A stretch of 64,000 nucleotides of DNA, from the NCBI GenBank assembly GCA_951799405.1, contig OX637332.1, forward strand, positions 4,097,001 to 4,161,000, given 5' to 3'. This DNA comes from Agapetus fuscipes. Its lineage: Eukaryota > Arthropoda > Insecta > Trichoptera > Glossosomatidae. Position numbers and translations under genes: made by a program. The notes beneath the pieces are model-generated. The model did not search any database and was not told the DNA's origin. It was given only the letters and a program-made list of their open reading frames with translations. Of the stretch, positions 1,997-63,780 are shown piece after piece (the stretch's first letter is position 1; every line of letters starts with the position of its first letter).

Positions 1997-2132
1997 AATC
2001 ATACTTATATTTTTTATTTCCCTACTAATTTACCTCGATTTATTGAAAACCATTTATTCCGACCAAACGTCAATAAAAAAAACTGACATTAAAAAAAACA
2101 AACATCAAATCAAACAGTAATAAATCTGTAGT
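1997..2132. repeat. Direct repeat, left copy
   Basis: A stretch of about 135 bp (from TAATCATACTTAT to AGTAATAAATCTGT) recurs almost unchanged at 2874-3002 in the same orientation. No coding potential or termini were recognised. Confidence 0.75.
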
Positions 2133-2265
2133 TATTCAAACACTGTTTTATTTTCACTCTTTATTATTTAATTATTTGCACACAAACGTTTTCGACTACA
2201 CAGTAGTCATCATCAGGTAATAATTAAATAATAAAGAGTGAAAATAAAACAGTGTTTGAATAACT
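2130..2265 (-). ncRNA. Hammerhead ribozyme-like palindromic element (H2)
   Basis: A near-perfect palindrome whose arms are AGTTATTCAAACACTG and its complement. On the minus strand the centre reads CTGATGA (2216-2210), one unpaired T, a 6-bp hairpin GACTAC/GTAGTC with loop TGT, then GAAA and palindromic AACGTT ending in T (2193-2184). Helix I is AC/GT next to the core, an internal loop, then about 16 A/T pairs. This is the hammerhead layout with cleavage predicted after the T at 2184 of the minus strand. One base between A9 and helix II is extra to the textbook core, and stem III has no loop, so a dimer may be needed. Activity is inferred. Confidence 0.7.
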
Positions 2266-2325
2266 AAAAATAAGATGAATTTTCACAGTGTTATAATGCA
2301 CCAACCATCCAAAATATTAGTAATA

Positions 2326-2589
2326 AATCTAATCTAATCTAATCTAATCTAAGCTGCAAAGATATATATCATTTAAGATTTATATTAAACGCATTCCCAC
2401 AAGCAGACATGTATAATTTCGCGCTAACACATGCCGCATGTGGACCTACAATATAAAAACCCAATCTCAAATGAACTTAAGCCCTGCAACTCTTGCCGTC
2501 CTTCCCTGAAACAGGGGTGACATTGGCAAAGTGAACCATTTTTTACAGTATGGGTGGTCAGCCGCATACCAACCTATAAGTCAAGGAAC
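2326..2589 (-). repeat. Family E copy, full length
   Basis: The minus-strand copy carries a five-unit TCTAA tail at its low-coordinate end and ends at ACCTATAAGTCAAGGA. Confidence 0.85.
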
Positions 2590-2761
2590 AATTTCAAGGA
2601 ACGGTTTCATTTTAAAATATATATTTTGGGGCCAGTTTTAATGCAATTCAATTGTGTTTCCCTCATAACAAGTGTCATTTAATAATTATAAAAGTTTCTT
2701 ATTATTTTACTCCTAAAAGTACAACTTCCTCAAAAAATTATAGGATTTATACCGTTTGATT

Positions 2762-2832
2762 TAGAGGGCTCTTGAGGTGTGATACACACAAAAACAGAGA
2801 AACAAATAAGTCATATTATTATTTTTATTATA
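2762..2832 (+). mobile_element. CR1-like LINE 3' tail insertion
   Basis: GGGCTCTTGAGGTGTGATAC, ACACAAAAACAG and an ATT-rich end match the 3' UTR of the LINE at 13276-13692. The piece is flanked by TTGATT at 2756-2761 and 2833-2838, a plausible target-site duplication, so it is probably an extremely 5'-truncated retrotransposition. Confidence 0.6.
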
Positions 2833-2873
2833 TTGATTCAAAGATGACTTTTCAATGAAAATCTCTGAATCTC

Positions 2874-3002
2874 GTAATCATACTTATTTTTATTTCCCTA
2901 CTAATTTACCTCGATTTATTGAAAACCATTTATTACTAGCAAGCGTCAATAAAAAACTGACATAAAAGAAAACAAACATCAAATCAAACAGTAATAAATC
3001 TG
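2874..3002. repeat. Direct repeat, right copy
   Basis: Second copy of the block at 1997-2132; the differences are mainly small indels in A runs. Confidence 0.75.
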
Positions 3003-3209
3003 TTGAGATATTGAATTTATAACGTAACAGCTCCGATACAAGTCTCACGCTACAGACAGCTTCAGCCCTTTTTATAGTATGATATAAGGATGGTTCTTCA
3101 AACATTGGGAACTGGAACATGCGTGATTTTGCCAGAATAATATATTTAGAATATTCGAGCGAATACTACACTATAGAACAAATACAAGTAGTTGCTGGAG
3201 TGATGCTTT

Positions 3210-3500
3210 CAGGGATCTGTTGCCGTGGTCTGTGGGAGCTGGAGCTTCCGGACGTTTCGCCCATTTCTACAATGGGCTTCTTCAGCGTGAAGTATGATGA
3301 TGATGATGATCTTGATGATGATGATCTTGATGATGATGATCTTGATGATGATGATCTTGATGATGATGATCTTGATGATGATGATCTAGCCCATCGTAGA
3401 AATGGGCGAAACGTCCGGAAGCTCCAGCTCCCACAGACCACGGCAAAAGATCCCGGAAAGCATCACTCCAGCATCATCAGCCGGCCGTGTAAGCCTAAAA
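3210..3500 (-). ncRNA. Hammerhead ribozyme-like palindromic element (H3) with internal minisatellite
   Basis: Long inverted arms (CCGTGGTCTGTGGGAGCTGG at 3223 and its complement near 3440) flank two GCCCAT/ATGGGC hairpins. The minus-strand left arm gives the best hammerhead in the window: helix I CTTCACG/CGGAAG (one bulge; 3292-3286 and 3250-3245), CTGAAGA (3285-3279), an extra A, helix II GCCCAT/ATGGGC, then GAAACGTC (3258-3251) with a GTC cleavage triplet. The right arm repeats the hairpin and GAAACGTC but has lost CTGANGA. The open frames across it read a repeated DDDDL or RSSSS and are not proteins. It ends near GCCGGCCGTG, as does the element at 55805. Confidence 0.72.
3311..3385 (+). 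repeat. 15-bp minisatellite, five units
   Basis: Five tandem copies of CTTGATGATGATGAT lie between the arms of the ribozyme element, just where the second CTGANGA would be expected. Confidence 0.9.
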
Positions 3501-3502
3501 CT

Positions 3503-3869
3503 CTTATTAAATACAAGTAGAATTATTTAAACACTTACATCTAGAGACACACACACACATACACTTCCGCACAAGTAAAAAAAATCGTAACAATCGTAAA
3601 GCGACGTATGGCATCGTACAGACGCGGATGTTGGGATAAGCTGGATCCTGTTACAGCTCTTTGATCCACCTTGCCGCGCTTTTGTCACGTGACTTCATTA
3701 AATTAAAGTCATCCCGCCAAAGTAAACGTCATCATTGTTTGTGCGAATGTGAAACTTGGTACAAAATAATTAGTATTGCATCTGAAGCCAAAGGTTTCCG
3801 AACTGTTCCGACATTTTCTACAAATAATAAAAAATGAACCCATCACAAACATTTGGAAAATCGATTTGT
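3503..3869. other. Non-repetitive DNA, no gene recognised
   Basis: Moderate GC, with a short CA run near 3550. Neither strand gives a convincing coding frame and no known repeat was recognised. Confidence 0.4.
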
Positions 3870-4072
3870 TCCTTGACTTGCAGGTTGGTGTGAGGCTGAC
3901 CACCCATACTTTAAAAAAATAGTTTCAGGGAAGGTCGGCAAAAGTTGCAGGGCTCATGTTTATTTAAAGTTTGGTTTTTGAATTGCAAGTACACATGCAG
4001 CATTTGTAAGCGCAAACTTACACGTGTCTGTTTTCGGGCATTCGTTATGAATATGAATTTTAAATATTTTTA
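3870..4072 (+). repeat. Family E copy, internally deleted
   Basis: It starts TTCCTTGACTTGCAGGTTGG. The block from TGGTTCACTTT to CCCCTG is deleted, after which the copy continues to a degraded tail. Confidence 0.75.
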
Positions 4073-4074
4073 AT

Positions 4075-4203
4075 GGTATTTCTATTAGCACAGTGAAAGT
4101 CCATTGTATTTTTTTATAAATTCAGTAGAAAAAACACAGTTTTAATTCACTTTTATTTACGTATATTTTGCTCAAACGTTTTCGCCTAATAAGGCATCTT
4201 CAT
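4075..4203 (-). ncRNA. Hammerhead-like element (H4), truncated core
   Basis: The minus strand shows TGAAGA, helix II GCCT/AGGC, then GAAAACGTTT (4183-4174) and one arm GTGAATTAAAACTGTGTTTT. The leading C of CTGAAGA is replaced exactly where a duplicated block (4201-4545) begins, so the ribozyme is broken at that junction. The shared terminal block TATTAGCACAGTGAAAG lies at 4084-4100. Confidence 0.55.
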
Positions 4204-4552: not shown

Positions 4553-4609
4553 AGGGGCATAATTGTTTTTGAATTGAGTTTTAAATGTAAATATTTTTTT
4601 TTTAATATT

Positions 4610-4735
4610 TAAAAAATTTAAATGGTAAAACATGGTTTTAATTCACTTTATTTTTTTTCTTTTAAAATAAAATAAAATGTTAATAAAGTGAATTAAAACC
4701 ATGTTTTACCATTTCAATTTTTTAAATATTTAAAA
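4610..4735. repeat. Palindrome with hammerhead-element arms, no core
   Basis: Arms reading AATGGTAAAACATGGTTTTA then ATTCACTTTA and the complement enclose an A/T spacer. The arms resemble those of H4, but CTGANGA and GAAA are absent, so this looks like a core-deleted derivative. Confidence 0.6.
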
Positions 4736-5082
4736 AATGTGCTTTCACTGCGTTAACAGATCAACACTAAAAAATATAGTAAATATATATATATTTACAA
4801 CTTTGATAATAGCTATGTATTTGAATAACTTAAAGAAGCAGAGAAAAAAATCGTTCGTAGTTAAAGCAAAAAGTTTGGGAACCGTCGTTCTAAACAATAT
4901 GGCAGATTAAACGTGCACTATATACGTAATATGATTATCAAAATCCGGCGTGTTTCACTACGCCATGTGAATCTTAATTATAAAACACGACGTTTAAGCT
5001 TAACAAAATGGTTTACAAAAAAATTCTGCAAAATATAACTGCCCTTGTATTTTGTAGAGACTTTACTTACCAGACGTGTCCA

Positions 5083-6287: not shown

Positions 6288-6893
6288 ATATATTAAACAT
6301 TCCACAAACGTTACAATAACACACAGAATTCTGTAATTTTTAATCACTTTTGTTAAGGTTCACGGCTACCCTAAACCTAACATGCCACAAACGTTACAAT
6401 AACACACAAAATTCTGTAACTTTTCATCAGTTTTGTTAGGGTTCACGGCTATCCTAAACCTTACATGCCACAAACGTTACAATAACACACAAAATGCTGT
6501 AACTTTTCATCAGTTTTGTTAGGGTTCACGGCTATCCTAAACCTTACATGCCACAAACGTTACAATAACACATAAAATGCTGTAATTTTTCATTAGTTTT
6601 GTCAGGGTTCACGGCTACCCTAAACCTAACATGCCACAAACGTTACAATAACACACAAAATGCTGTAATTTTTCAGCATTTTTGTTAGGGTTCACGGCTA
6701 TCCTAAACCTTACATGCCACAAACGTTGCAATAACACACAAAATGCTGTAATTTTTCATTAGTTTTGTTAGGGTTCACGGCTACCCTAAACCTAACATGC
6801 CACAACCGTTACAATAACATGCCACAAACGTTACAATAACACACAAAATGCTGTAATTTTTCAGCAGTTTTGTTAGGGTTCACGGCTACCTTA
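6288..6893 (+). repeat. 83-bp minisatellite, about seven units
   Basis: ACAAACGTTACAATAACACA recurs at exact 83-bp steps (CATGCC or CATTCC at 6298, 6381, 6464, 6547, 6630, 6713 and 6796), then once after only 23 bp. Each unit holds an interrupted inverted repeat TTAGGGT...ACCCTAA followed by CCTAA. Units differ by a few substitutions only. Confidence 0.92.
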
Positions 6894-7944: not shown

Positions 7945-8770
7945 AGTTTTTTTTTTTTAAATAGATTTGTGAAGTTGAATGCAATTCGCCAAACTATTCT
8001 GCCTGGCCAGAAACAGGTATTAATATCTTACTTACTTACTTATTCAGCCACTTCTTATCCACTGCTGGACATAGGCCTCCCCCATATCTCTCCAGGCGTC
8101 TCTGTCCTGGGCTCTCTGCATCCAGTCACCAGCAACTCTTTTGATATCATTTGACCATCGTGTAAGAGGCCTTCCTCTTGTTCTTTTGTCTTCACGAGGT
8201 CTCCATTCTACCACTCTTTTTGTCCATCTTTGCTCGCTCAATCTGGCTACATGCCCTGCCCACGACCACTTCTGCTTTGCCACTCTTTTGACTATGTCAG
8301 TAACTCCCGATCTTCTACGTATTTCGGTATTTCGTATTCGATCTGATAGTCTTATGTGTAGCATAGCTCTTTCGTGCTTTCGTTGTGCTACACGAAGTTT
8401 CCTGATAGTCATTTTGGTGAGAGTTAGTGTCTCTGCTCCGTAAGTCATAACTGGCAGGACACACTGGTCGTACATTTTCCGTTTCAGGCAGGCAGGTATT
8501 AATATCATCATTTAATAATTCATTATTGTTTATTATTAATGAATTATTAAATAATAATTACCCAATAACATCTGTTGAACCAGGGTCAAAGTTAAAGTCA
8601 AGTGACCCAAGCGGGGATCGAACCAACGTTGTTCCATTCGAAACACGCTAGAAAGATCAGCCCTCTTGGCCCCCGCGGCTATAACCCGGACTAAACAACT
8701 GTTTTTTAAACTATATGTCATCACAGGTTCCTCGAGAATAAAACGAACAGCCGCAGGGCTAGTAATCATG
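7945..8770 (-). repeat. Family C element split by an RTE LINE insertion
   Basis: Its 3' end (TTGCATTC / GCCTGGCCAGAAACAGG) is at 7970-8013. The rest resumes at 8507 with the A/T region, GAACCAGGGTCAAAG and a tRNA-like B box, GGATCGAACCAACG. The interruption carries a 14-bp target-site duplication. Confidence 0.8.
8028..8492 (-). mobile_element. 5'-truncated RTE-type LINE with target-site duplication
   Basis: The minus-strand frame encodes the C-terminal end of an RTE-clade reverse transcriptase: CVLPVMTYGAETLTLTK, then an R-rich stretch, KWSWAGHVARL, WRPREDKRTRGRPLTRW, and a final GEAYVQQWIRSG, about 150 residues of an ORF normally near 1000. CAGGTATTAATATC flanks it at 8014-8027 and 8493-8506. 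The 3' end is a TAAG-type tail (rc of CTTACTTACTTATTC at 8028-8042). The open frame is intact at the end, so the insertion is fairly young, yet it can encode no functional enzyme. Confidence 0.88.
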
Positions 8771-9623: not shown

Positions 9624-9883
9624 TAAATCTAAAATCTAATCTAAATCTAAGCTGCAAAGATATATATCATTTAAGATTCATGTTAAACGCATTCCCACAA
9701 GCAGACATGTATGTGTTCGCGCTAACACATGCCGCATGTGGACTTACAATATAAAACCCCAATCTCAAATGAACATAAGCCCTGCAACTCTTGCCGACCT
9801 TCCCTGAAACAGGGGTGACATTGGCAAAGTGAACCATTTTTTACAGTTTGGGTGTTCAGCCTCATACCAACCTATAAGTCAAA
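9624..9883 (-). repeat. Family E copy
   Basis: Full length on the minus strand from AAATCTAAGCTGC to CCTATAAGTC. Confidence 0.85.
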
Positions 9884-10941: not shown

Positions 10942-11390
10942 TATAATCTAAGTTGCGAAGATGAAATACATTTAATACTCATATTAAATGCATTCCCATA
11001 AAGAGATACTTACAAAAGGAAAACAGTTAAAACATTTTTATTTACGATTACCTTGAGTATATTTTAATTCCACAACCGGTTTCGCAAACATCCGTTTGCA
11101 TCATCAGGTGTTTAAATTAATACTAAATGGCTTAGAAACGAAATCAATCTTAGAGGGTGTCATTGTTTGAGGGTATGAGGGAGGGAGGGGGTGCAAGACA
11201 ATGAAATAGATACTTATAAATTCGCGCTTACACATGCCGCATGTGGACTTACAACAGAAAACTCAATCTCAAATAAACCTAAGCCCTGCAAATCTTGCCG
11301 AACTTCCCTGAAACAGGGGTGACATTGGCAAAATGAACCTTTTTTTACAGTATGGGTGGTCAGCCTCATACCAACCTTTGAGTGAAGGAA
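10942..11390 (-). repeat. Family E copy split by a hammerhead element
   Basis: The 3' part is 10942-11012 and the 5' part 11209-11390. GATACTTA is repeated at both junctions. Confidence 0.82.
11013..11208 (-). ncRNA. Mobile hammerhead ribozyme-like element (H5), 196 bp
   Basis: It is bounded by an 8-bp duplication, GATACTTA (11005-11012 and 11209-11216). On the minus strand: helix I CAC/GTG plus TTTAA/TTAAA around a 1x3 internal loop, CTGATGA (11107-11101), an extra T, helix II GCAAAC/GTTTGC with a short loop, then GAAA and ACCGGT ending in T (11083-11074). All hammerhead core positions (CUGAUGA, GAAA, UH) are present; the predicted cut follows the minus-strand T at 11074. There is no open frame, so it must move in trans. 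The right part has G-rich GAGGGAGGGAGGGGG. Confidence 0.78.
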
Positions 11391-11699: not shown

Positions 11700-11703
11700 T
11701 AGT

Positions 11704-11950
11704 ATTCCTTGACTTATAGGTTGGTATGAGGCTGACCACCCATACTGTAAAAAATGGTTCACTTTGCCAATGTCACCCCTGTTTCAGGGAATGTCGGCAG
11801 GAGTTGCAGGGCTTATGTTCATTTGAGTTTGGATTTTATTTGTAAGTACACAATCAGCATTTGTAAGCGCGAACTACACGTGTTTGTTTGTGGGCATACA
11901 TCTGAGAGCTTTAAATGAATATATCCTTGCAACTTAGATTATAGATAGTT
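11704..11950 (+). repeat. Family E copy, TTATAGA-tail subfamily
   Basis: Full copy with TACATCTGAGAGCTTTAAAT and the TTAGATTATAGATAG tail. Confidence 0.88.
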
Positions 11951-14284: not shown

Positions 14285-17200
14285 ATGACAACGGCCGCGC
14301 CCATCAGCAGGCCCAAGCAGTATGGCGTGTCCTTGCGGGAACTGCGAGAGGTCATGGATCTCCGTGGCCAGGAGGGAATGGATAAGGTCAAAGCCTTGGG
14401 TGGAGTTCAAGAAATCTGTCAGAAACTGCGCACCTCCAAGAGCAACGGAATCTCTGATACTGCACTAGAACTGGAATATCGGAAGGAGACCTTCGGATCC
14501 AATGTTATTCCCCCCAAACCACCTAAGACCTTCCTCCATCTGGTATGGGAAGCCCTTCAAGATATTACTTTGATAATCCTGGAGATAGCGTCTTTGATTT
14601 CCCTTGGTCTTGCATTCTACACTCCCTCTGATGATGGCTCCGGGAACGAGGAAGGTGAATCCCATCACCGCTGGATTGAAGGAGCAGCCATTCTAGTATC
14701 GGTTATCGTTGTGGTGATTGTAACAGCTTGCAATGATTACACCAAGGAGAGACAGTTTCGGGGACTTCAGAGCAGGATTGAGGGAGAGCACAAGTTTGCT
14801 GTTATTCGAAATGGCGAAATGAATGAAGTCCCGATTGCCGAGATCTTAGTTGGCGACATCTGTCAAGTGAAGTACGGCGACTTGCTTCCGGCAGATGGTA
14901 TACTCATACAAAGTAATGATCTTAAAGTTGATGAATCATCCTTAACTGGAGAATCTGATCATGTCAAAAAAGGTGACAGTGTTGATCCACTGCTGCTATC
15001 TGGTACTCATGTCATGGAAGGAAGCGGCAAGATGGTGGTAACTGCTGTGGGAGTCAACTCGCAAGCTGGGATTATTTTCACACTTTTGGGAGCTACTGTG
15101 GATGAGCGCGATACTAAAAAATATAAAGATATGAAGAAGAAGAAAGGCAGCACGAGCGAAGAAACTGGTAACAGTAATAGTCAAGTTACTTCTCCCATTA
15201 TCATAGAGGAAGATGTACCGATCGCTAGCGATATTCCTCTTGAAAACACAAGCAAGAAAGAAAAATCTGTATTACAAGGTAAACTGACTAAATTAGCAAT
15301 TCAAATTGGCTACGCAGGATCAACAATAGCAGTTCTCACGGTTATTATGCTCGGAATTCAATTCAGCATCAAAACGTTTGTCATCAATCAAAAGCACTGG
15401 AAAAATTATTACATTAATTATTTTGTGCAACATTTTATCATCGGAGTCACTGTTCTAGTTGTTGCTGTTCCTGAAGGCCTTCCTCTCGCGGTGACCTTGT
15501 CGCTCGCTTACTCTGTGAAGAAGATGATGAAGGACAATAATCTAGTACGGCACTTGGATGCCTGTGAAACAATGGGTAACGCGACTGCAATTTGTTCTGA
15601 TAAAACCGGAACCCTGACCACTAATCGGATGACTGTTGTGGAATCGTTTGTGTGTGAAAAACTGAGAAAATCAATACCTAAGTATTCCGAACTGCCAGCA
15701 TTTGTCGGAAACTTACTGGTTGAAGGAATATGCGTCAACTCTGCATACACATCTAAAATTATCGAATCAAAAGATCCATCCGAATTTCCATTGCAAGTTG
15801 GAAATAAGACTGAATGTGCTCTTCTAGGATTTGTAAAAGCTCTCGGAAGAAATTATCAAACCATTCGAGATAGTATTCCCGAGGAAGTATTCACTAAAGT
15901 CTATACTTTCAATTCTGTGCGCAAATCAATGAGTACTGTGATTCCTTTGAAAAACGGAGGATTCCGACTCTATACAAAAGGAGCATCGGAAATTGTTATG
16001 AATAAATGTAGCTACATATGTGGACATAATGGTAAGATTGAAAAACTTACTCGGGATATGCAAGACAGGTTGCTCCGTCAAGTGATTGAGCCCATGGCGA
16101 GTGATGGTCTCCGAACCATATCGATTGCCTATCGTGACTTTGTTCCTCACAAACTAGAAAACAATCAAGAACTTATTGATGATATTCCTAACTGGGATGA
16201 CGAAGAAAATATTGTTAAAAACTTGACTTGCTTGTGTGTCGTAGGAATTGAAGATCCAGTCCGAGAAGAAGTTCCGGAAGCTATAAAGCAATGTCAAAAA
16301 GCAGGAATTACGGTGCGAATGGTTACTGGAGATAATGTTAACACAGCTCGATCGATTGCTATAAAATGCGGAATATTGAAACCAAACGATGATTTTCTGG
16401 TTTTGGATGGTAAAGAATTTAACAGGAGAATCAGAGACGCCAACGGCGTTGTTCAACAAAGTCTTTTGGATAAAATTTGGCCTAACCTACGGGTCCTAGC
16501 TCGTTCATCTCCAATAGACAAATACACTCTTGTAAAAGGAATCATTGACAGTAAACTGTCACCCAATCGTGAAGTCGTTGCTGTGACAGGAGATGGAACT
16601 AATGATGGACCTGCTCTAAAAAAAGCTGATGTTGGTTTTGCCATGGGCATTGCTGGTACAGATGTTGCCAAAGAAGCATCTGATATTATTTTGACTGACG
16701 ATAATTTCAGCAGCATTGTGAAAGCTGTTATGTGGGGAAGAAATGTATACGACAGTATCGCCAAGTTTTTACAATTCCAACTGACAGTCAACGTGGTTGC
16801 TGTTGCAGTTGCTTTTATTGGTGCATGTTCTGTTCAAGATAGCCCGTTGAAGGCCGTTCAGATGCTTTGGGTCAATTTGATAATGGATACTCTTGCTTCA
16901 CTTGCTTTGGCAACTGAAATGCCCACTGAAGAGTTGCTACTCCGAAAGCCATATGGTCGAACTAAGCCACTGATTTCTCGTACAATGATGAAAAATATTC
17001 TCGGTCAAGCTTTTTACCAGTTGATTGTAATCTTTACTCTACTTTTCTACGGAGAACGCATTTTCGATATCGGATCAGGACGTGGCGCTGATTTAGGATC
17101 TGCTCCAACTCAACATTTCACAATTATTTTTAATGCTTTCGTTATGATGACACTTTTTAACGAATTGAATGCTAGGAAAATTCATGGACAAAGAAACATA

Positions 17201-17779
17201 TTCAAAGGACTTTTGACCAACCCTATCTTCTACACTATTTGGATTTTAACATTTATCGCTCAAGTTCTCATTACTGAATTTGGAAGAGTAGCATTTGCTA
17301 CAAGATCTCTCTCTATGGAACAATGGATGTGGTGTTTATTCTTCGGCCTTGGAACACTTGTTTGGGGACAGATCATAACAAGCATACCCACGAATACAAT
17401 TCCAAAGAGCATGACATGGGGACGCGGACAATCTGGAGACTACGATGATGGAACAGGAGATGATAGCTACAGTGGTGAACCAGAAAAAACTCCTGCTGGT
17501 AGGATTCTATGGATCAGGGGGCTGACTCGCTTGCAGACACAACTCCGTGTCATCCGTGCTTTCAAGTCCACATTGGAAGATCTGCGCTCTGTGCACAGCT
17601 TGAATAGTCTTCGCAGCTCTCGCAGTCATCAAGGACCTTACCTAGACGAGGATGCCCACACAGTGAAGTCCACAACTCACTCACCCAATCTGACAGCGAT
17701 GGCTTCTCACCGCCTGCACCCCAACACTCCACACTCCAGCGGATACATGCCCAAACCACTACACGAGACCAGGATTTAA
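14285..17779 (+). CDS. PMCA: Plasma-membrane calcium-transporting ATPase (PMCA), single coding exon
   Basis: P2B-type ATPase that exports cytosolic Ca2+ in exchange for protons using ATP; 1164 residues, the normal family length. Visible: TM1-2 (about 93-150), TGES actuator loop 221-224, a basic lipid-binding loop ([11 protein letters not shown], about 278), TM4 with PEGLP 396-400 (E397 a Ca2+ ligand), DKTGT with phosphorylated Asp439, KGAS 565-568 (nucleotide site), TGDGTND 768-774 (hinge), TM6 with N864 and D868 (Ca2+ ligands), ten membrane segments in all, a calmodulin-binding autoinhibitory helix starting [11 protein letters not shown] at 1072, and a C-terminal ETRI that fits a class I PDZ ligand. 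I start at the ATG at 14285; the open frame extends seven codons upstream to a GTG, but animal initiation and the conserved N-terminus ([13 protein letters not shown]) favour the ATG, which has A at -3. No intron interrupts the frame, unusual for this family. Confidence 0.96.
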
Positions 17780-20759: not shown

Positions 20760-20870
20760 AAAACATTTTTTTTATATTACGGCGAGTACCGAGGATGCAA
20801 ACGGATCGTTTGCGAAATCGGTTATGGAACTTAAATATACGCCATAATAAAAAACATAGTTATTTTATTT
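20760..20870 (+). ncRNA. Hammerhead-like element (H6), inactivated
   Basis: A relative of the element at 11013: helix II GCAAAC/GTTTGC and GAAATCGGTT (20814-20823) are kept, but the catalytic motif reads CCGAGGA (20789-20795), with U4 changed to C. The flank shares the TGGAAC..AAATATAC order with the minus strand of the 11013 element. Confidence 0.5.
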
Positions 20871-29390: not shown

Positions 29391-29425
29391 GTTTTAAATT
29401 ACACTATGTATTGTACTATGTATTA

Positions 29426-29671
29426 TTCCTTGACTTATAGGTTGGTATGAGGCTGACCACCCATACTGTAAAAAATGGTTCACTTTGCCAATGTCACCCC
29501 TGTTTCAGGGAATGTCGGCAAGAGTTGCAGGGCTTATGTTCATTTGAGTTTGGATTTTATTTGTAAGTACACAATCAGCATTTGTAAGCGCGAACTACAC
29601 GTGTTTGTTTGTGGGCATACATCTGAGAACTTTGAATGGATATATCCTTGCAACTTAGATTATAGATTATA
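29426..29671 (+). repeat. Family E copy, TTATAGA-tail subfamily
   Basis: Full length, with a clean GATTATAGATTATAG tail. Confidence 0.9.
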
Positions 29672-29844: not shown

Positions 29845-29935
29845 ATGTATAGTAGGAAACAAACATTTAATAAATATTTATTATTTAATTTTACAAACGT
29901 TTTCGATAATATATCATCGTCAGGTATACAAAAAT
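29845..29935 (-). ncRNA. Hammerhead ribozyme-like element (H7)
   Basis: Minus strand: CTGACGA (29923-29917), an extra T, helix II GATA/TATC with loop TAT, GAAA and AACGTT ending in T (29904-29895). The first two helix I pairs (AC/GT) are kept. One arm only is recognisable, so the long palindrome seen in other members is lost or was never complete. Confidence 0.62.
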
Positions 29936-31178: not shown

Positions 31179-31989
31179 GAAGTTCAGTCATTATTATTTT
31201 TTTAATGAATTGATTGTACGAATCATGGTGTGGAAAGATCGGGTTTCTCAATGCTCAAAAAACCTAAACTCTTAAAGGAAGTTGACAGTTTTTCTCTACT
31301 CTGCGGTTCTGAATATACATTTTTTTTAATTCCATACAAAAATTGGAGTAACTTCATAAACATTTTTTTTTCATATTTCATTTAGAAATAATCATAAAAT
31401 TTTATCAATAGAAGGCAATTTTTTATTTTTTTTTTCATAAAAAAGTTAATATTATTCTGCATTTAAACCCTAAACAAGCCCTAAAATAATGGTGATGTTA
31501 AGACATTATAACTTAAATAACTATATTATCGACAAAATTTATGGTTTTCTCTTTATTTACTCATCATTGACGCAAAAATGTAATAAAAACATGAAAAACC
31601 ATTTCCGACAATATCATTACGTATTATTTTTACAAAAACAAAAACTCAGGGTTTGTAATAATTAATAATTTAAATGTTTTGAACGTTGAACAAATCTGTA
31701 GATTATGAAAGTAGAAAACAAAATTATGTAGTCACTTAATATATTTAAAATGAAATTACAAAATGTTTATTACGTAATTGTTTATTTAATATTATGTTGT
31801 TAATTGTTATATTTTTAATAAAGTCATACTATGATTACAAATAAAATTCCAACATTTTTTTATTTCTTATTCTGAATCTTTAATTCACATTAAAATAATT
31901 TCTCATTGGTCACATTTGTTTCAAATTATTTTTACTTGAAACTTTCCTTAATTTAGTAAAATAAAAATAAAAACATTTATATTTTGTAT
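31179..31989. other. AT-rich DNA, no gene recognised
   Basis: No supported feature. Confidence 0.45.
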
Positions 31990-32212
31990 TGTTTGTGTAT
32001 TAGCACTGTGAAAATTCATATTTATTAATACTTTTAATTTTAAGGATCAATTCCAATAAAGCACTGCTTTATTTTCATTTATATATAATTTATTTAAAAA
32101 TATATATTTACTAACGTTTTCGATATATTATCATCGTCAGGTTATTTTTTTTTTTTAATAAATTATTTATAAGTGAAAATAAAGCAGTGTTTTATTGGAA
32201 TTGATCCATAAA
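31990..32212 (-). ncRNA. Hammerhead ribozyme-like palindromic element (H8)
   Basis: It begins with the shared end block GTTTGTGTATTAGCACTGTG (31991-32010). Arms GGATCAATTCCAATAAAGCA and complement (32044 and 32207) surround a minus-strand core: CTGACGA (32140-32134), an extra T, helix II GATA/TATC with loop ATA, GAAA plus AACGTT ending in A (32121-32112), and helix I AC/GT continuing into A/T arms. It is structurally the same as H7. Confidence 0.68.
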
Positions 32213-32694
32213 ATTAACAACATTAATTTATCTTGACCAGAAGTTTTCAACATTGAGCGCTTTTGACGTTATTAACTTGCTTTTCTTAATAAAATAACAA
32301 AAATAATAATTAAACGCTACAAACAGACAAAATATGTTCTCGTTTGAGTCTGAAGGTGCCACGATGAGGTTAAAATTATTTAACTTTGCACATTCACAAT
32401 GTTGCCATTTTACTTATGTCTAAGAATTTCATTTATTTCCAGGGCACCTAGTTTTTGCTTAAAATCTATGTTTGATTTATATTTAATTCAATAGAAATTA
32501 ATCTTCACAATTTGTATATTATACAAACATTAAGACTTTTAAAGATTTCTCGTTATTCAAGGCAATTTTTCTTATTTTAAATTAGAATACATACATATGT
32601 GTTTGTGTACAGTTTGAACAATTTTGCGCGATATTATATTTTAATATATATTTTTTTTATTTCTTTTAATATTTCCAGCTTGGCAGAAGTCTCC
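32213..32694. other. AT-rich DNA, no gene recognised
   Basis: No supported feature. Confidence 0.4.
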
Positions 32695-34959: not shown

Positions 34960-35230
34960 AAACATCGTGCTGTAACTGGAACTCTGTCGCCATTTCCGGT
35001 GGTGGCGCGAGAGCCTCTACATATTTACTTCCATTTTTTCCTATCCTTGGATACCTCTTTCAATTCAATCATATCCATCACCTTTTTCATCAATTTCCTT
35101 CTTTTACAATCACTTTATGTATCCCATTCTTTCACAATTTTACCTATCTGATTACAGTTACAGTTTACAGTGATCCAGCCATACTTTTCTCGGTCTTCCC
35201 TTCCACATTTTCTCTGTTATGCTATTTTTT
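34960..35230 (-). pseudogene. Degraded LINE C-terminal piece (RTE-like)
   Basis: Minus-strand pieces KRRKLMKKVMDMI and KEVSKDRK match the block at 42098. A short TTACAG duplication near 35155 breaks the frame. Confidence 0.65.
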
Positions 35231-35502
35231 TAACAATCCTTTTATTTATGCACCTCTTGATACAAAAAAAGCTTAAAAATCAATGAAAATAAACTGGATT
35301 AATTTAAAATACATATGAAATGCAAAAACACTAAATAATCATTGGCATTGCAAGCGACCTACTTGAAGTCTTATCATTTTCATATCGTAAAATATTTAGC
35401 GATCAAAGTATTTTGAATAATGGGCCAGGGAAGTGAGTAGGTACGCAGAATGAATAATAATTATCATACAATGCTATTCATGTAAGTATAAACTTAAAAA
35501 AC

Positions 35503-42091: not shown

Positions 42092-42097
42092 AAGCTT

Positions 42098-42275
42098 ACC
42101 TCTTTCCTGACATACCTCTTTCAATTCATTCATATCCATCACCTTTTTCATGCATTTTTTTCTTTTGCGCTCACTTTGTATATCCCATTCTTTCACAATC
42201 TCCTCAATCAGATCACTCCATACTTTTCTCGGTCGTCCCTTCCTTCTTTTTCCTTTCACACATTCTTCGTTTGGA
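42098..42275 (-). pseudogene. LINE C-terminal piece (RTE-like), uninterrupted
   Basis: The minus strand gives an open stretch ECVKGKRRKGRPRKVWSDLI, EEIVKEWD and KKVMDMNELKEV, the least damaged of the four copies of this block. It resembles the GKRRRGRPRKRW region near the end of RTE-like polyproteins. Confidence 0.7.
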
Positions 42276-43712: not shown

Positions 43713-44023
43713 AGAGCACTTAGGTGACAATCTTACATAAATGGAACAGTAAACATATATAAACATATCGATACCTTAAAGGTAAAAAAAACTGAATTAT
43801 TTTCACATTAAGCTAACATGGGTTTCTCAAATCAATGCACATTTTTCCCATTCTCTATGAGAGAAATACACAAAAAAGTAGAAATCGTATTGTTAAGAAG
43901 TTTTTCATGAACATTTTCTTATTATTAGTTCACTTACTACGAGAAGTTACTCCCAATAATATGTTTTATCTACGATTTCTCAAATCTGTGATTCAGTATA
44001 TAATATTCATTAGATTTTGTAGG

Positions 44024-44165
44024 GTTTGTGTATTCATACAGTGAAAATTCATTTGATTTAAAATAAAATTATTTGTTTCTAAAACGTAGTTTTATTTTCA
44101 CAATAATATTTTATACCTCGAGCACTTTCGACCTTCAATACTCAGGTCATTATCAAGAGTATATA
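44024..44165 (-). ncRNA. Hammerhead-like element (H10), variant core
   Basis: It starts with the shared end block GTTTGTGTATTCATACAGTG. On the minus strand the catalytic side is CTTGATAATGACC, helix II GACC/GGTC, then GAAA and AGTGCTC (44129-44120). CTTGATAA is not the canonical CTGANGA, although the same variant pattern recurs at 36069 and 63650. Confidence 0.5.
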
Positions 44166-46239: not shown

Positions 46240-46468
46240 CAGTGGCAAAGGGTGCCATACAAGCCGGTTCGCATCGGCTTCCCTTTTAAAATGATGTAAC
46301 AAAGTAGTTAAAAAATATAGGCAGAAAGTAAAAAAATACATTTAAAACCAAAGAAACAATACGTATTTTTCCCCCATTGAAACCATACAGTCTACTTTAT
46401 TATCATTTTTGCCTCGTTTTAAACGGGAAACAGATGGGAATCGGCTTGTATGGCACCTTTTGCCACTG
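46240..46468. mobile_element. hAT-like MITE with CAGTGGCAAA termini
   Basis: Left CAGTGGCAAAGGGTGCCATA and right TATGGCACCTTTTGCCACTG inverted termini extend about 40 bp. GTACTCA occurs at 46230-46236 and 46469-46475, three bases away from the left terminus, so the duplication is slightly imperfect. Confidence 0.7.
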
Positions 46469-47708: not shown

Positions 47709-47946
47709 TAATCTAAGTTGCAAGGATATATTCATTCAAAGCTCTCAGATGTATGCCCACAAACAAACACGTGTAGTTCGCGCTTACAAATGCTGATTGT
47801 GTACTTACAAATAAAATCCAAACCTCAAATGAACATAAGCCCTGCAACTCTTGCCGACATTCCCTGAAACAGGGGTGACATTGGCAAAGTGAACCATTTT
47901 TTACAGTATGGGTGGTCAGCCTCATACCAACCTATAAGTCAAGGAA
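47709..47946 (-). repeat. Family E copy, TTATAGA-type subfamily
   Basis: Well-preserved minus-strand copy, preceded by an ATATAATATAATATA run. Confidence 0.88.
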
Positions 47947-48037
47947 TACGAGTCAATACATAACATCAATGGTTTTTTTCATTTTTCGCTTTTGTCATGG
48001 TTAATTATATATGGTACAATGTGTTTTATTATTTTTG

Positions 48038-48450
48038 TTCCTTGACTTCTAAGTTAGTATAAGGCTGATCAATTAAACTGAAAAAAATTATTCACTTTGA
48101 CAATGTCCCCCTCGTTTCAGAGAAGGTCAGCAAAAGTTGCAGGCCATCATATGTAATGATAAATGAAAATACAGGATTTTTTCCGTTTTTGAAAACAGCC
48201 TCATAGAAACTTTTTTTTTCAAGCGCTTCCTTTTGCCAACCTGCATTTGCGGCGGATTCAATGTATTCCGTTCCTTTCTTATTATTTTTTATTATATTTT
48301 TCATGCTACGGTTTGTTTCACTTTGCCAATGTCACCCCTGTTTCAGGGAAGGACGGCAAGAGTTGCAGGGTGTATGTCCATTTGAGATTGGGTTTTTATG
48401 TCGTAAGTGCACATGCGGCATGTGTAAGCGCGAACTTTATTAGATTATAG
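48038..48450 (+). repeat. Family E copy split into two parts
   Basis: 48038-48146 is a diverged 5' part ending GCAAAAGTTGCAGGCC. 48309-48450 is a better-kept copy from TTCACTTTGCCAATG to AGCGCGAACTTT. The differing divergence suggests two separate insertions rather than one split copy. Confidence 0.65.
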
Positions 48451-50576: not shown

Positions 50577-50625
50577 CTTTTTTAAATAGATTTATTAAGA
50601 GGAATGCAATTCACCATCCTATACT
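50577..50625 (-). repeat. Family C 3' fragment
   Basis: AAATAGATTTATTAAGAGGA followed by ATGCAATTCACCATCC. Confidence 0.5.
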
Positions 50626-50736
50626 TGTATGAAAAAGGTTATGACTCTGGATGAAATGAAAGAAGTATGCAAGGACAGGAAGAAGTGGCGGCTAATCTGC
50701 AATGTTGATTTCTAATGTTGGTGTATTCATTTGCTA
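50626..50736 (+). pseudogene. LINE ORF terminus (RTE-like)
   Basis: The frame from 50641 reads MTLDEMKEVCKDRKKWRLIC, the kind of short motif that ends many RTE-like polyproteins and that follows MDMNELKEV in the copies at 34960 and 42098. Only about 25 codons remain. Confidence 0.6.
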
Positions 50737-51090
50737 CATTTTTTTGCATAGGAAATTTTTGACTTTTTTTGTATAGATTTCTTTGTAAGGTTTTGCTCTT
50801 TTTTATATTTAAATGTAATTTATTATTCATATTCCTTGACTTATAGGTTGGTATGAGGCTGACCACCCATACTGTAAAAAATGGTTCACTTTGCCAATGT
50901 CACCCCTGTTTCAGGGAAGGTCGGCAAAAGTTGTGGGGCTTATGTTCATTTGAGGTTTGGATTTTATTTGTAAGTACACATTCAGCATTTGTAAGCGCGA
51001 ACTACACTTGTTGGTTTGTGGGCATACATCTGAGAGCTTTAAATGAATATATCCTTGCAACTTAGATTATAGATTATAGATTATAGATTC
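50737..51090 (+). repeat. Family E copy plus 5' flank, duplicate of 4201
   Basis: Family E starts at 50831. Upstream 95 bp and family E both match 4201-4545 with very few differences (for example TTTTGTTC versus TTTTGCTC). Confidence 0.87.
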
Positions 51091-53577: not shown

Positions 53578-53654
53578 TACATTTGCCTCCATCCAGTGTT
53601 TTTCTTTTATTTAGTTTGTACATAAATAAACTTATTTTTTAAATCAACTGTTGT

Positions 53655-53755
53655 AAAAAAATTACACAGTTTTTGTTCACTTTTATATTTGAAAAAAATA
53701 TGTATTGCTGAAATATTTTCGCCTTAAAAGGCAGCTTCAAATTGATTTTATACAA
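53655..53755 (-). ncRNA. Hammerhead-like element (H11), degraded
   Basis: Minus strand: TTGAAGCTGCC, helix II GCCTT/AAGGC and GAAAATATTT; the arm GTGAACAAAAACTGTG is kept. Both the CTGA motif and the AACGTT palindrome are mutated. A sister of H4. Confidence 0.45.
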
Positions 53756-53875
53756 ACTAAATACAATGAAATTTCACTGTGTGAACCACCAGATCTTAAC
53801 AAATATAATTTTTATTTTATTTTGGTTTATTCGCCTCATCTGGATTCAAATATTGTACTTATTGTGAGATGCATG

Positions 53876-55744: not shown

Positions 55745-56215
55745 CAGTTGGTATGAGGTTGACCACTCATACTGTAAATAAATTATTCACTTTGCCAATG
55801 TAACTTTGACATAACAATCACTTTTTTCGGGCTATGTAGCCGTGGTCTGGTTGATACATTCCGGATAGTTTCGCCCATTGCTCCGATGGGCATTATCAGC
55901 GGTTGGCTAGTCGTTCTAATCTTCCGGAATGTATCAACCAGACCACGGATACATAGCCCGAAAAAAGTGATTGTTATGTCAACAAGTACCGGCCGTGAAA
56001 GCTTCAATGTACAATGTAACCCCTGTTTCAGGGAACGTCGGCAAGAGTTGCAGGTTTTATGTTCATTTGAGATTAGGTTTTAATATTATAAGTCCACATG
56101 TGGCATGTGTAAGCGTGAACTTATACATGTCCGCTTGTGTGAGAATACGTATAATATGATATGATCTTAAATGTAACGTTTATTTGCAACTTAGATTAAA
56201 GATTATGGATTCATA
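55745..56215 (+). repeat. Family E copy split by a hammerhead element
   Basis: 5' part to 55804, 3' part from 56012; CAATGTAAC is repeated at both junctions. Confidence 0.82.
55805..56011 (-). ncRNA. Mobile hammerhead-like palindromic element (H12), 207 bp, core mutated
   Basis: Bounded by the 9-bp duplication CAATGTAAC (55796-55804, 56012-56020). Arms of about 60 bp (TTGACATAACAATCACTTTT, and GGCTATGTAGCCGTGGTCTG) pair with the right half. Minus-strand core: helix I CCG/CGG, CTGATAA (55899-55893, the essential G8 replaced by A), helix II GCCCAT/ATGGGC, GAAACTATC. Sister of the element at 3210, including the GCCGGCCGTGAAAGC-like end (ACCGGCCGTGAAAGC). Lies in the Shroom-like intron. Predicted inactive. 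Confidence 0.75.
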
Positions 56216-56627: not shown

Positions 56628-56869
56628 CGGGGCTATTCTTAGACATTTTAGTCGTCGGTTAAGCTCACGCTTTGACAAACTAATGATGCGTTTGTATGAA
56701 GACCTGGCAATCCAAGATGGCCGCAAGTGAACAACTGATTTGTCTTCATACAAATATTAAAAATTCGGTAGGTAAGAATGACCGTGGTGATTAAATTTTC
56801 AGACCGGGCACCATTTGTTTATCAAAGCGTGGGCTCAACCGACGACTAAAATGTCTAAGAATAGCCCCG
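56628..56869. mobile_element. MITE with GGGGCTATTCTTAG termini
   Basis: GGGGCTATTCTTAGACATTT continuing to AGTCGTCGGTTAAGC is mirrored at 56834-56868. Flanks TTA and ATA may be a diverged 3-bp duplication. Confidence 0.72.
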
Positions 56870-60473: not shown

Positions 60474-60790
60474 TCAGTTGGTAGAGTGCTTGCATTCCAT
60501 TCCGTCAGCTCGGTTTCGAATCACGCCGAGGGTGTCAGTAATGATTTCCCGTTTCGGTGTTTATTTCAAACCCCAATATAAAAACCGGCAAGGTTTACTC
60601 AGCCTTCACAAGAAATAAGTACCAGCCCTCTCGGGAGCTAAGAAACCCCCACTTCAACTGAAGTGGTTGGCGTAAGGCCGGCCCCCTTACCTGTAAAATT
60701 AAATAGGTTCAACTCGCCACATGCGACCCCTTCGGGGATAACGCGGGAAGAAGTTACACTATATGTGAAGCTTAGTTGCGTTGTGTTGCG
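60474..60790 (+). repeat. Family A SINE, full length
   Basis: Head GGTCGATAGCTCAGTTGGTA with B box GGTTTCGAATCAC, complete body and TTGCGTTGTGTTGCG tail. It begins 28 bp after the family C copy. Confidence 0.9.
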
Positions 60791-61019
60791 TATTGCGTTG
60801 TTAAGAGTAAATGTTTTTTTCCATGAAAAGAAAACGCAGAATTTGTAAATGACGTTTAAAACCCTCGATGGCCATCTAAACCAAACCTTATGCTTCAAAA
60901 CGCACGCATTCTACTAACAAGTCTACTGCTATTTACAAGGCAATACAATCTTATGTTCTGTATCACTGATCTTCAACTTTAGCCAGTGAGGTTGCCCTTA
61001 AAACATACAAGTAGGCATG

Positions 61020-61490
61020 GAAGTATATTCAATGGAAGGGCTATGAATATGATTTAGTACCAATCGACATGATGCAACGTCTTTGACACCATACATTGTT
61101 AATAGTGCTGTCTCGCTCACGACATATGAAATGTTTTTGTTATTTTCTATGGAAGCAACGTGTCTCTACTCCGTATTCAATCTATTTACACAATCACCAT
61201 GAAATCACCATGGCAACGGACTTTGTTACTAGTGTTGTTGAAAGCATGGAGGAAGTATTAAATGGAGGGGTCGTACATGTGATTTAGTACCAATCAACAT
61301 GATTCACCGTCTTTGACACCATACTTTGTTTATAATGCTGTCTCGCTCACGACATATGAAATGTTTTTCTCATTTTCTATGTAAGCAACGTGTCTCTACT
61401 CCGTCTTCAATCTATTTACAAATCACCAAGGAAACACATGAAATCACTGTGGTAACGGATTTGTTAGTAGTGTTGTTGCAAGTATGAAGA
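61020..61490 (+). repeat. Tandem duplication, 230-bp unit, two copies
   Basis: GATTTAGTACCAATC at 61051 and 61281; both units contain GCTGTCTCGCTCACGACATA and GCAACGTGTCTCTACTCCGT. Confidence 0.85.
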
Positions 61491-62420
61491 TATCTGATAA
61501 ATTCCGAATTCAAAAATGTTCCCACCTCATTGTGTACGGGATGATTTCCACAAGTATCTATTACCGCGAGCATAGAAGTTACATACTTGAAGAAGCAAGT
61601 ACCTATATATTTGAACATCACTAGTTCTACAAATGGCTGTTACTTTCGCGAACAAAATATTTCGACAAACGAAAAATAAATTTTATCAACGTAATCATAT
61701 AGAATAGTGATTAAAGTGAAATATTATTCCATGTTCTATAACACATTTACTCTCATTTGTTGGCAGGTTTAGAAAATACCCAGTTTGGCCTTTAAATGTA
61801 TTCTTTTTCCAATTAGGTAACACACCTGTTCACAGTTGGAAGGTTACCGATATACTGAATTTAGATTTTTGTGTGATGAGTGGGGTAGCGTATTTCTAAT
61901 TCTCAAAGGATTGATTTCTTAGCCCATCCAGTTCTATATATCCATGGTTGAAAGTATTAAAATATCTGATAAATTCCGAATTCAAAAATGTTCCGACCTC
62001 ATTATGTACGGGATGATTTTCACAAGTATCTATTACCGCGAGCATAGAAATTACATACTTGAATAAGGAAGTACCTACATACTTGAATATCACTAGTTCT
62101 AAAACTGGCTGTCACTTTCGCGAGCAAAATATTTCGACAAATGAAAAATAAGTTTTATGAAAGTAATCATACAAAATAATTTTTTCAAGTGATATATTAT
62201 TCTACTTTTTTTACAACATTGATTTTATTTTGTTAACACGTTTAGAAAATATTTAGTTTGGCATGTATATGTTTGTTTTCCAATTAGATAACACACCTGT
62301 TGACAGTTGGAAGGTTACCGATAGACTGAATTTGTATTTTTGTGTGATGAGTGGGTTAGCGCATTTCTAATTCTCAAATGATTGATTTCGTAGCCCATCC
62401 AGTTGTTAAATATCGATGTT
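61490..62420 (+). repeat. Tandem duplication, 472-bp unit, two copies
   Basis: TATCTGATAAATTCCGAATT at 61491 and 61963; both units end near TAGCCCATCCAGTT. Open frames in each copy are short and interrupted, so no gene is called. Confidence 0.88.
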
Positions 62421-62888
62421 CCATACTGTATATACATATATATATCCATATTAATATGTAAGCATTGAACTAAACATTCTGCTGAACCAAATACGTGATT
62501 TGCACACAAATCCTGTGAACACACAAAGACAGAAAGTTGTACGGCCGGCAATAATAATTGCCCTTGACTTTGTATGTAGCCCACGTTTGTGCACAGATAC
62601 ATACAATAAGTTAATCAGGATCCGGTAAAAGCAAAGTTTCCAATTATCCGATACGAAACAATTCGAGAAAAAGTCGGATAATCAATTATTCGGATTTATC
62701 GAAACGTACAAAGAAAAATCTGCCGTGCTTAGGGAGAAAATAGTCAGCTATATCAATAAACTGCTATAACTTTATTACAAATTAAAGTTAATTTATTATT
62801 ATTTGGTATTTGGTATTATCTGGTTTAGTTTTGATGTCCATACGTGTTATTATTTATTGATTTAAAAAACTGTAATGTGTCGTGTATG
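62421..62888. other. No gene recognised
   Basis: AATTATCCGA/TCGGATAAT words near 62640-62690 form small inverted repeats; otherwise AT-rich. Confidence 0.35.
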
Positions 62889-63117
62889 TTCCTTGACTTA
62901 TAGGTTGATATGCTGTAAAAATGGTTCACTTGGCATTGTCACCCCTGTTTCAGGGAAGGACGGCAACAGTTGCAGGGGGTATGTCCATTTGAGATTTGGT
63001 TTTTATGTTGTAGGTTCACATGCGGCATGTGCAAGAGCGAACTTGTACGTGTCTGCTTGTGAGAATGCATATAATGTGAATCTCCAATGTAACAAATCTT
63101 TGCAACTTAGATTAGAT
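62889..63117 (+). repeat. Family E copy, GTATGCGG/GTGTATG subfamily
   Basis: It has an internal deletion after AGGTTGATATG; TTAGA tail joins the next copy. Confidence 0.83.
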
Positions 63118-63562
63118 TGATATAAGGGTGACCCCCCGTACTGTAAATATGGTTCACTTTGCCAATGTCACCTCTGTTTCAGGGAAGGTCGGCAAGAGTT
63201 GCAGGGCTTATCTTCATTTGAGATTGCGCTTTTTTATTGTAGGTTCACATGCGGCATATTTTAGCGCGAACTGATACGTGTCTGCTTGTGGGAATGCGTT
63301 TAATATTAATCTTAAATGATATATTTATAAATGTTTAATTTTAGGTTTTCACGGATATTATACATGTTGATAGGTTTTCGGGTAGTCCGATAATTTGCTA
63401 TTTTCTAGGCGACGTTTTGGATCGGTATCACACAGAAGAACCGCTCTGATGAAGGATCGTGATACCGATCCGAAACGTTGGCTAGAAAATAGCAAATTAA
63501 CGGATTACCCGAAAACCTATCAACATATATATATTTTTACAGCTTAGATTTAGATTTAGACG
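63118..63562 (+). repeat. Family E copy split by a hammerhead palindrome
   Basis: 5' part to 63326, tail TTTTTACAGCTTAGATTTAG from 63533. An ATATATTT repeat at the junctions may be the duplication, but the A/T sequence makes it uncertain. Confidence 0.75.
63327..63528 (+). ncRNA. Hammerhead ribozyme-like palindrome (H13), two arms
   Basis: Arms ATGTTGATAGGTTTTCGGGT and TTTGCTATTTTCTAG with their complements. Plus-strand core: CTGATGA (63446-63452), an extra A, helix II GGATCG/CGATCC (63454-63471), GAAA and ACGT ending in T (63472-63479); helix I is weak beside the core (GCT/GGC). The opposite arm on the minus strand keeps the helix II sequence but has CAAAACGTC, so only the plus strand looks competent. 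Confidence 0.65.
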
Positions 63563-63564
63563 CA

Positions 63565-63780
63565 AAAATAAAAACAAAGTTATTTTTCACGCATTGGTTT
63601 ATTTCCTCAATCGCTTTCGGCGTGTTAAACGCACCATCATCTATAGGACAACTTAATGATGGTGTGATTGGCACTCTGAAAGCGCTCAAGGAACGAAATC
63701 AACTCGTGAAGAAAAACATTGTTTTGTATTTTTACGTTTTAAATTTTTAAAAATCATCACAGTGTCAACACACAAATAAT
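63565..63780. ncRNA. Hammerhead-like element (H14), variant core on both arms
   Basis: Minus arm: GATGATGGT, helix II GCGT/ACGC, GAAAGCGATT (63618-63609). Plus arm: CTTAATGATGGTG, hairpin GTG/CAC, GAAA plus AGCGCTC (63678-63687). Ends in the shared block CACAGTGTCAACACACAAA (63758-63776). The catalytic motif differs from CTGANGA in both arms. Confidence 0.48.

Follow-up and report, generated by a model that had tools for sequence, protein, structure and literature searches.

Penelope-like elements (PLEs) are said to carry minimal hammerhead ribozymes, described by Cervera and de la Pena in 2014 and by Luense et al. in 2017. In the part of PMC6155905 that deals with them, these ribozymes are usually minimal versions without helix III. 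Penelope inserts in A. vaga have head-to-head inverted pseudo-long terminal repeats (pLTRs), an optional 31-bp tail on one of them, and target-site duplications of 8–10 bp, and the passages of PMC3846280 that describe them suggest self-priming on an antisense template. For a purified PLE protein, both strands are cut and extended, reverse transcription begins at two sites that bound the tail, with no strand difference in start site in vitro, and ribozyme mutants still permit insertion in vitro (PMC11167929). Here we analyze a 64,000-nt stretch of the Agapetus fuscipes genome (contig OX637332.1, positions 4,097,001 to 4,161,000; "the window" is this whole stretch), which holds a family of short hammerhead-bearing repeats.

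At least 12 places in the window have pieces of these repeats, and 8 of them are mirror-image pairs (Table 1). Aligning 15 half-elements gave a single unit that consists of a hammerhead, an arm, and an optional 3' tail. The order is CTGANGA, stem II, GAA with a palindrome (AACGTT or others) and H17, a spacer, an arm similar to GTGAAAATAAAACAGTGTTT, and then either the end or the tail, which is TTTTCACAGTGTTAATACACAAAC plus an A-rich stretch. In the palindromes, two copies of this unit meet head to head, at junctions that vary. A first-pass annotation had described palindromic elements of 130–220 bp. This size fits the pairs, but each pair is two units, and the palindrome is better read as an insertion signature than as an element. 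Because, at other places in the genome, some of the repeat ends also flank Penelope-type endonuclease and reverse transcriptase (RT) genes, the pairs are likely to be shortened Penelope insertions and not a new kind of element. We consider it very probable that the D-type repeats are the hammerhead-bearing ends (pLTRs) of PLEs, as the others likely are too, and that the palindromes likely represent two Penelope-primed cDNAs joined head to head. The units in the window are best read as shortened PLE insertions without an open reading frame (ORF).

To find cores in the window, we used a strict descriptor of the minimal hammerhead: CTGANGA, a stem II of at least 4 bp, and GAAA, followed by a self-complementary stem III that ends in T, an H17 that is not G, and a stem I of at least 2 bp. 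There were exactly six hits (elements B, C, E, F, G, and H1). Across 200 dinucleotide shuffles of the window, the mean number of hits was 0.135 with stem II only, 0.02 with stem III added, and 0 with stem I as well. The same six loci had been singled out as complete in the first-pass annotation, whose coordinates for the five on the minus strand (2184, 3251, 11074, 29895, and 32112) are those of H17. It also listed fourteen loci with one architecture. We did find 14 matches to CTGANGA-N4..30-GAAA (one of them nested), as compared to 3.6 expected, but besides the six complete cores these are degenerate copies or chance matches.

At the six loci, the conserved core elements CUGANGA, GAAA, and NUH occur in order, as in hammerheads. 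In 40 cores whose stem II has 3 or more pairs, H17 is never G, and the most common stem III is AACGTT (26/40); ACGT, ACCGGT, AATATT, and others are also found. The sequence of stem II varies while its pairing is maintained, as first proposed: pair 2 is paired in 43 of 49 distinct cores (AT 26, CG 11, GC 3, TA 3). This tally is limited to cores with a palindromic stem III, many of which are related copies, so the self-complementarity of stem III, which accompanies the covariation of stem II, was itself selected for. Open frames of 32–42 codons begin inside or at the hammerhead in elements C (3251-3285) and H1 (63446-63475), as reported for the Anolis element Poseidon PAc.

Rfam covariance models gave no hammerhead hit in the window, either at the gathering threshold or with E up to 10, which counts against the ribozyme reading and is an outcome that the first-pass annotation had named as refuting it. 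We judge this test to be insensitive to the minimal form. Rfam hammerhead models describe fuller forms, and they are probably silent here because the cores are minimal hammerheads with a short stem III, like those reported in PLEs. A minimal form would explain the miss, without proving that the predicted ribozymes are active. At 7 loci, predicted dimer folds were favored over two monomers by 5–13 kcal/mol, and not all of these dimers have the double-hammerhead fold. As to folding, the loci at 2124, 32048, and 63366 behave as long palindromes (fold z of -12 to -17), but those at 11107 (+0.43) and 29923 (-1.00) do not. We also scanned viral contigs for the core and took the three matches as due to chance: two (L001 and L003; L numbers are our names for loci outside the window) lack a convincing stem II, and the third (L002), with some complementarity, was counted with them.

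The arm motif recurs as the first-pass annotation had noticed. GTGAAAATAAAACAGTGTTT has 8 matches in the window with up to 3 mismatches (0.06 expected) and 757 exact matches in the genome, versus none for the reversed control. From 100 listed places among these 757, we studied the first 60 loci in contig order. In 29 of the 60, blastn found an inverted pair at the 20-mer. Two of the loci without a pair by blastn (L014 and L062) have, by eye, a very short partner that bears the tail.

Usually, just one arm of a pair has the tail. In the window this is true of all six pairs that could be read by eye (A, B, G, D2, I, and H2), and the tail-free arms of A, B, G, and D2 stop just before the position of the tail. 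Among the 29 sampled pairs, 25 have exactly one tail, 1 has both, and 3 have none (L034, one of those scored as tail-free, looks tailed by eye); with a looser tail match, the counts are 24, 3, and 2. If each arm were tailed at random, the probability of 25 or more one-tailed pairs out of 29 would be about 5e-5. This asymmetry is more marked than expected if, as reported in vitro, the strands do not differ, and we view it as the most useful new point.

The pairs are often flanked by direct repeats, as expected for target-site duplications of PLEs. The window repeats are 12 bp long at B and C and 8 bp at D2, and they lie 1–2 nt from the tail-free end and 35–52 nt from the other end. Per element, about 0.5% of control placements reach 12 bp and 4.4% reach 8 bp; these fractions are slightly low, because skipped draws were counted in the divisor of 4000. 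Of the 29 sampled pairs, 22, 18, 11, 10, and 10 have repeats of at least 8, 9, 10, 11, and 12 bp, as compared to 11.5, 6.0, 4.0, 2.4, and 1.1% of 451 control placements. Among the one-tailed pairs, the tail is on the side that is farther from the repeat in 10/10 cases with at least 12 bp, in 8/10 with 8–11 bp, and in 3/3 with 7 bp. These features bear on whether the pairs could be miniature inverted-repeat transposable elements, or other fold-back DNA transposons, with a hammerhead-like loop that arose by chance. Their inverted arms are long, as in such transposons, and the arm 20-mer is present in hundreds of copies. However, the ends are unequal (one tail), the junctions vary, the direct repeats range from 8 to 14 bp instead of having a fixed length, and D-type units flank PLE genes, so we give this explanation hardly any weight.

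Orientation also matters, because metazoan non-LTR retrozymes are tandem direct repeats (PMC7229834) that spread via circular RNA. Like the units described here, they are short, non-coding, low in GC, and bear type I hammerheads, and they are proposed to depend on PLEs (PMC7229834). But units are not arrayed in tandem anywhere in the window. The first 100 listed places of the 20-mer include 12 pairs of neighbors within 300 bp, of which 11 are divergent, 1 is convergent, and none are on the same strand. The units here form inverted pairs, and it is very unlikely that they are retrozymes.

Within a pair, the arms are 92–97% complementary in A, B, C, D2, and H1. This would fit with self-priming, in which a single cDNA folds back and is copied to yield the inverted arm, as suggested for the Penelope palindromes of A. 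vaga in the passages mentioned above (PMC3846280). However, the tail is on the shorter arm in A, B, L090, and L093, and absent from the longer arm, which has the core or the ORF. Simple fold-back of a sense-templated cDNA does not produce this pattern, and the A. vaga authors needed an antisense template. In G and L091 the tail is on the longer arm, so these two do not argue against self-priming. Overall we think that self-priming is unlikely, and we favor two cDNAs that were primed separately.

The junctions also show where each partner begins. In 20 pairs with a core, similarity to the partner begins between the core and 40 nt beyond the predicted cut site, and in 9 of the 20 it begins no more than 4 nt from C3. 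The partners in L018, L034, and B begin near stem I, which makes their seams difficult to discern. Elements G, B, and D2 had suggested that partner ends might cluster at the cleavage site, but just 2 of the 20 are within 5 nt. (The input for this test was 28 elements, comprising 24 of the 29 sampled pairs and 4 from the window; the 8 without a core gave no row.)

As first annotated, no RT of this kind is visible in the window: tblastn with 15 PLE frames gave no match at E 1e-3, and Pfam found neither RT nor GIY-YIG domains in 20 window frames. This is not true of the genome, which has PLE genes. The RT traces in the window are LINE (long interspersed element) fragments only, which match the L075 frame (8122-8460, 35019-35270, 42095-42259, and 50602-50706). 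A search of the genome with PF01541 gave at least 16 GIY-YIG matches (150 of 973 candidates were scored). The L074 frame (480 aa) contains RVT_1 (8.4e-13) and GIY-YIG (4.2e-6), and its relatives, among those listed, are RT proteins of about 340–840 aa, some from insects (Parnassius, Diabrotica).

We extended four GIY-YIG loci and read their tails by eye. In L090 (around L074), hammerheads flank the frame on both sides, with a 443-bp inverted repeat (97.7%), one tail, and a 14-bp direct repeat. In L091, a GIY-YIG frame lies between hammerheads, with one tail and a 13-bp repeat. L093 has homology to the RT and endonuclease of L074 (39% over 440 aa, interrupted by a stop), a 454-bp inverted repeat, one tail of the D type, and a 13-bp repeat. 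In L092, there are one tail and an inverted repeat of 101 bp. The hammerhead scan found no core in L092 or L093. PLE genes with D-type ends are present at L091 and L093 and absent from the window. Genes with head-to-head hammerheads, one tail, and repeats of 13–14 bp match the published signature of PLE insertion (PMC11167929, and the corresponding passages of PMC3846280). The same layout of inverted units, varying junctions, usually one tail, and direct repeats of 8–14 bp is seen around PLE genes and in the short pairs.

To relate the types of unit to PLE genes, we used blastn against 21 PLE-region loci (the 16 GIY-YIG loci, L088, and L090–L093, some of which overlap). D1 matched 13 of these loci, D2 12, I 9 (weakly), J 5, E 3, and F 1. 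C, H1, and H2 had no match among the 21, and A, B, and G matched few of them, which we take to be neighboring insertions. D-type hammerheads are found at 7 of the 16 GIY-YIG loci (L076, L077, L079, L081–L083, and L085), and L087 has a divergent one. GIY-YIG frames in this genome are flanked by head-to-head D-type units similar to those in the window, which supports the hammerhead reading and the link to Penelope made by the first-pass annotation. J-like units lie head to head on either side of the GIY-YIG match in L087. Element E is 89% similar to a hammerhead in L088 that lies 120 nt past a GIY-YIG remnant on the same strand. In L111 and L100, type A is preceded on its own strand by remnants of GIY-YIG. 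Going by these sequences, the evidence that type D belongs to PLEs is strong, and types E, J, and A are likely linked to them as well.

Some candidate links were rejected. In L088, the GIY-YIG match goes with the neighboring E-type unit rather than with the A-type one. E-like stretches in L073 and L092 were not counted, as they are on the opposite strand from the GIY-YIG frame. Type A had looked like a defined short element with a fixed 5' end (query 340-342), but other copies share sequence further upstream, and L111 has the GIY-YIG remnant. Separately, at the GIY-YIG locus L083, some 130 nt downstream from a D-type hammerhead, there is a B-like arm and tail (2182-2275; 85% over 98 nt), which may be a neighbor or a variant end.

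Several observations weigh against interpreting all of the units as PLE insertions. There is no coding relative of B, C, H1, or H2 among the sequences examined; the link for type E depends on the one remnant in L088, and the link for type A on remnants in just 2 of 30 loci. The hammerhead in L090 has only its stem III (ACCGGT) in common with E, with no blastn match. At the blastn cutoff used, 31 of the 60 sampled loci have no pair. In the window, A, G, and H2 have no convincing direct repeat and the candidate at H1 is ambiguous, while the repeat in L092 is just 7 bp. Also, because the predicted cut is not a preferred position for partner ends, nothing here indicates that cleaved RNA was the template.

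The first-pass annotation had suggested a non-autonomous lineage, similar to short interspersed elements (SINEs). This does not follow for D, E, J, or A, because GIY-YIG relatives or remnants exist; for B it could be correct. Type B, and perhaps others, would then be a stand-alone short RNA that uses a Penelope protein, with a 5' hammerhead, an arm, and a tail where RT starts. The 60 sampled loci include 28 B-type units with cores and no coding parent, and the 15 PLE frames match none of these loci (which span about 600 bp on each side) except for L020, which is A-type. Upstream of the core, position -5 has a conservation of about 1 bit and position -6 of 0.16 (some positions out to -13 hold 0.6–0.8 bits). 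L024 and L038 have about 34 nt upstream of the core in common, and a longer upstream stretch that we examined, in L062, is the inverted partner. In the window, the ATG frames of B, F, G, and D1 stop within 3–13 codons. On the other hand, type A looked similar until GIY-YIG remnants surfaced upstream of it, the loci were picked by the arm 20-mer and viewed to about 600 bp only, and type D is clearly part of coding PLEs. We think that a PLE-dependent SINE is possible, at well short of an even chance. More tentatively, type B might be a micro-retroposon of about 100–140 nt, with a 5' hammerhead, an RT-start tail, and head-to-head doublets, and the one-tail rule might reflect strand-specific RT starts in vivo. 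Type B may be independent. The main finding is of PLE ends of a known kind that are unusually well displayed here.

Returning to PLE insertion, we propose that Penelope machinery would prime two cDNAs, one on either side of a staggered cut in the target. One cDNA would start at the distal RT start site (and be tailed) and the other at the proximal site (tail-free). How far each extends toward the 5' end would vary, with the stop often inside the ribozyme or slightly upstream of it, and the two would be joined at their 5'-template ends, so that the hammerhead region is mirrored. In active parents, the ribozyme might trim tandem or read-through RNA; with a self-complementary stem III of 4–8 nt, it would act mainly as a dimer or with help from a protein. 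The copies in the window are likely to be passive insertions. We infer the order of priming, the choice of start site, the joining, and any role of the ribozyme.

Like Pen2a and Pen3a of A. vaga (in those passages of PMC3846280) and Poseidon PAc of Anolis (PMC11167929), these elements have head-to-head pLTRs, one tail, and short target-site duplications, and full copies have a frame with RT and GIY-YIG. PAc has a hammerhead, while the A. vaga passages mention none. Unlike these elements, the copies in the window have no ORF, the direct repeats are up to 12–14 bp instead of 8–10 bp, and stem III is most often AACGTT. As in the minimal PLE hammerheads covered in PMC6155905, there is a CTGANGA...GAAA core and helix III is nearly absent, and a self-complementary stem III suits dimers. 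Here, by contrast, the hammerheads are mirrored by insertion, and in B and G the arms lengthen stem I to about 50–90 bp. Among the listed papers of the open-licence PMC literature, we saw none on ORF-less inverted hammerhead doublets, which is not proof of absence.

Table 1. Hammerhead-related repeats in the window. C3 and H17 are core positions; IR, inverted repeat.
Feature	Position	Strand	Description
Element A	376..682		Head-to-head pair; IR 376-646
A, minus unit		-	Degenerate hammerhead, C3 484; no tail
A, partner	643-668 (tail)	+	Begins inside stem II; tailed
B, left direct repeat	2116..2127		AGTAATAAATCT, target duplication; 12 bp in ~0.5% of control placements
Element B	2128..2318	-	Hammerhead without tail, C3 2216; cut predicted between 2184 and 2183
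B, partner		+	Begins ~7 nt past cut site; tailed
B, right direct repeat	2319..2330		AGTAATAAATCT
C, left direct repeat	3180..3191		AAATACAAGTAG
Element C	3192..3508	-	Full hammerhead, C3 3285, H17 3251
C, partner	3474-3508 (tail)	+	No CTGANGA; extra 35 nt at 3' end, probably the tail given its position
C, between arms	3298-3387		(TGATGATGATGATCT)6, where the partner's CTGANGA would be
C, open frame			MGETSGSSSS..., extends through tail
C, right direct repeat	3509..3520		AAATACAAGTAG
D1	4051..4203	-	Tailed D-type unit, single; A in place of C at C3; 5' side abuts 350-bp repeat (98% like 50734-51089); units at GIY-YIG loci are 74-78% similar
D2	4595..4778		Head-to-head D-type pair without core; tail on plus; 91% over 94 nt to unit beside GIY-YIG in L077/L091
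D2, direct repeat	4587-4594, 4779-4786		GTAAATAT
E	11057..11107	-	Complete hammerhead, C3 11107, H17 11074; stem III ACCGGT; single copy
E, relative	20791-20840		Degenerate
F	29880..29925	-	Complete hammerhead, C3 29923, H17 29895; single, A-like
Element G	31971..32237	-	Complete hammerhead, C3 32140, H17 32112; IR 32024-32227; tail 32018-31991
G, partner		+	No tail
J	44010..44142	-	Single 5'-truncated unit with arm and tail but no core; a unit in GIY-YIG locus L087 is 89% similar over 131 nt
I	53590..53806	-	D-like degenerate hammerhead; no tail
I, partner		+	Short, tailed; weak inverted match (34 nt)
H1	63327..63531	+	Complete hammerhead, C3 63446; IR 63359-63531; mirrored 3' half on minus
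H1, candidate 8-bp repeat	63319, 63529		ATATATTT, not unique
H2	63560..63785		IR 63560-63737; two degenerate hammerheads; tail on plus (63752)

The window also contains other features. At 14285-17776 on the plus strand is a plasma-membrane Ca-ATPase with an uninterrupted frame of 1164 aa and no intron in the frame. Its best matches are from arthropods: among named hits the best is a protein of Artemia franciscana (72% and 66% over two stretches), and two other records are at 80–81%. Other animal plasma-membrane Ca-ATPases, unlike this frame, are not known to be intron-free. An interspersed repeat of about 170 bp matches the window at some 30 or more places (for instance 2418-2588, 9715-9882, 11702-11876, 29424-29597, and 47774-47966), sometimes as inverted pairs (9118-9340/9660-9882 and 11258-11391/11704-11837). 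There are tandem arrays at 37061-38473 (402-bp unit, 3.5 copies) and 6296-6819 (83-bp unit, 6.3 copies). Further strong inverted repeats lie at 55806-55982 (98%), 47841-48143 (81%), 56628-56869 (92%), and 46240-46468 (84%). The hammerhead scan found no core in these four, which are possibly other fold-back or PLE-type insertions. A weak match to MIR807 at 32703-32863 on the minus strand (31.5 bits; gathering threshold 113), on a 46-bp inverted repeat, is likely due to chance.

What appeared to be a strange family of palindromic ribozymes is probably a readable record of Penelope insertion. That Rfam can miss this form of ribozyme is a warning. If our model holds, then every doublet records both priming events, the RT start sites, the stop points, and the cut in the target. 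With likely hundreds of doublets in a single genome of 618 Mb, a little-known mechanism of PLEs would become measurable in bulk, and such measurements could address whether ribozyme cleavage takes part in insertion and how the choice of tail relates to the strand.

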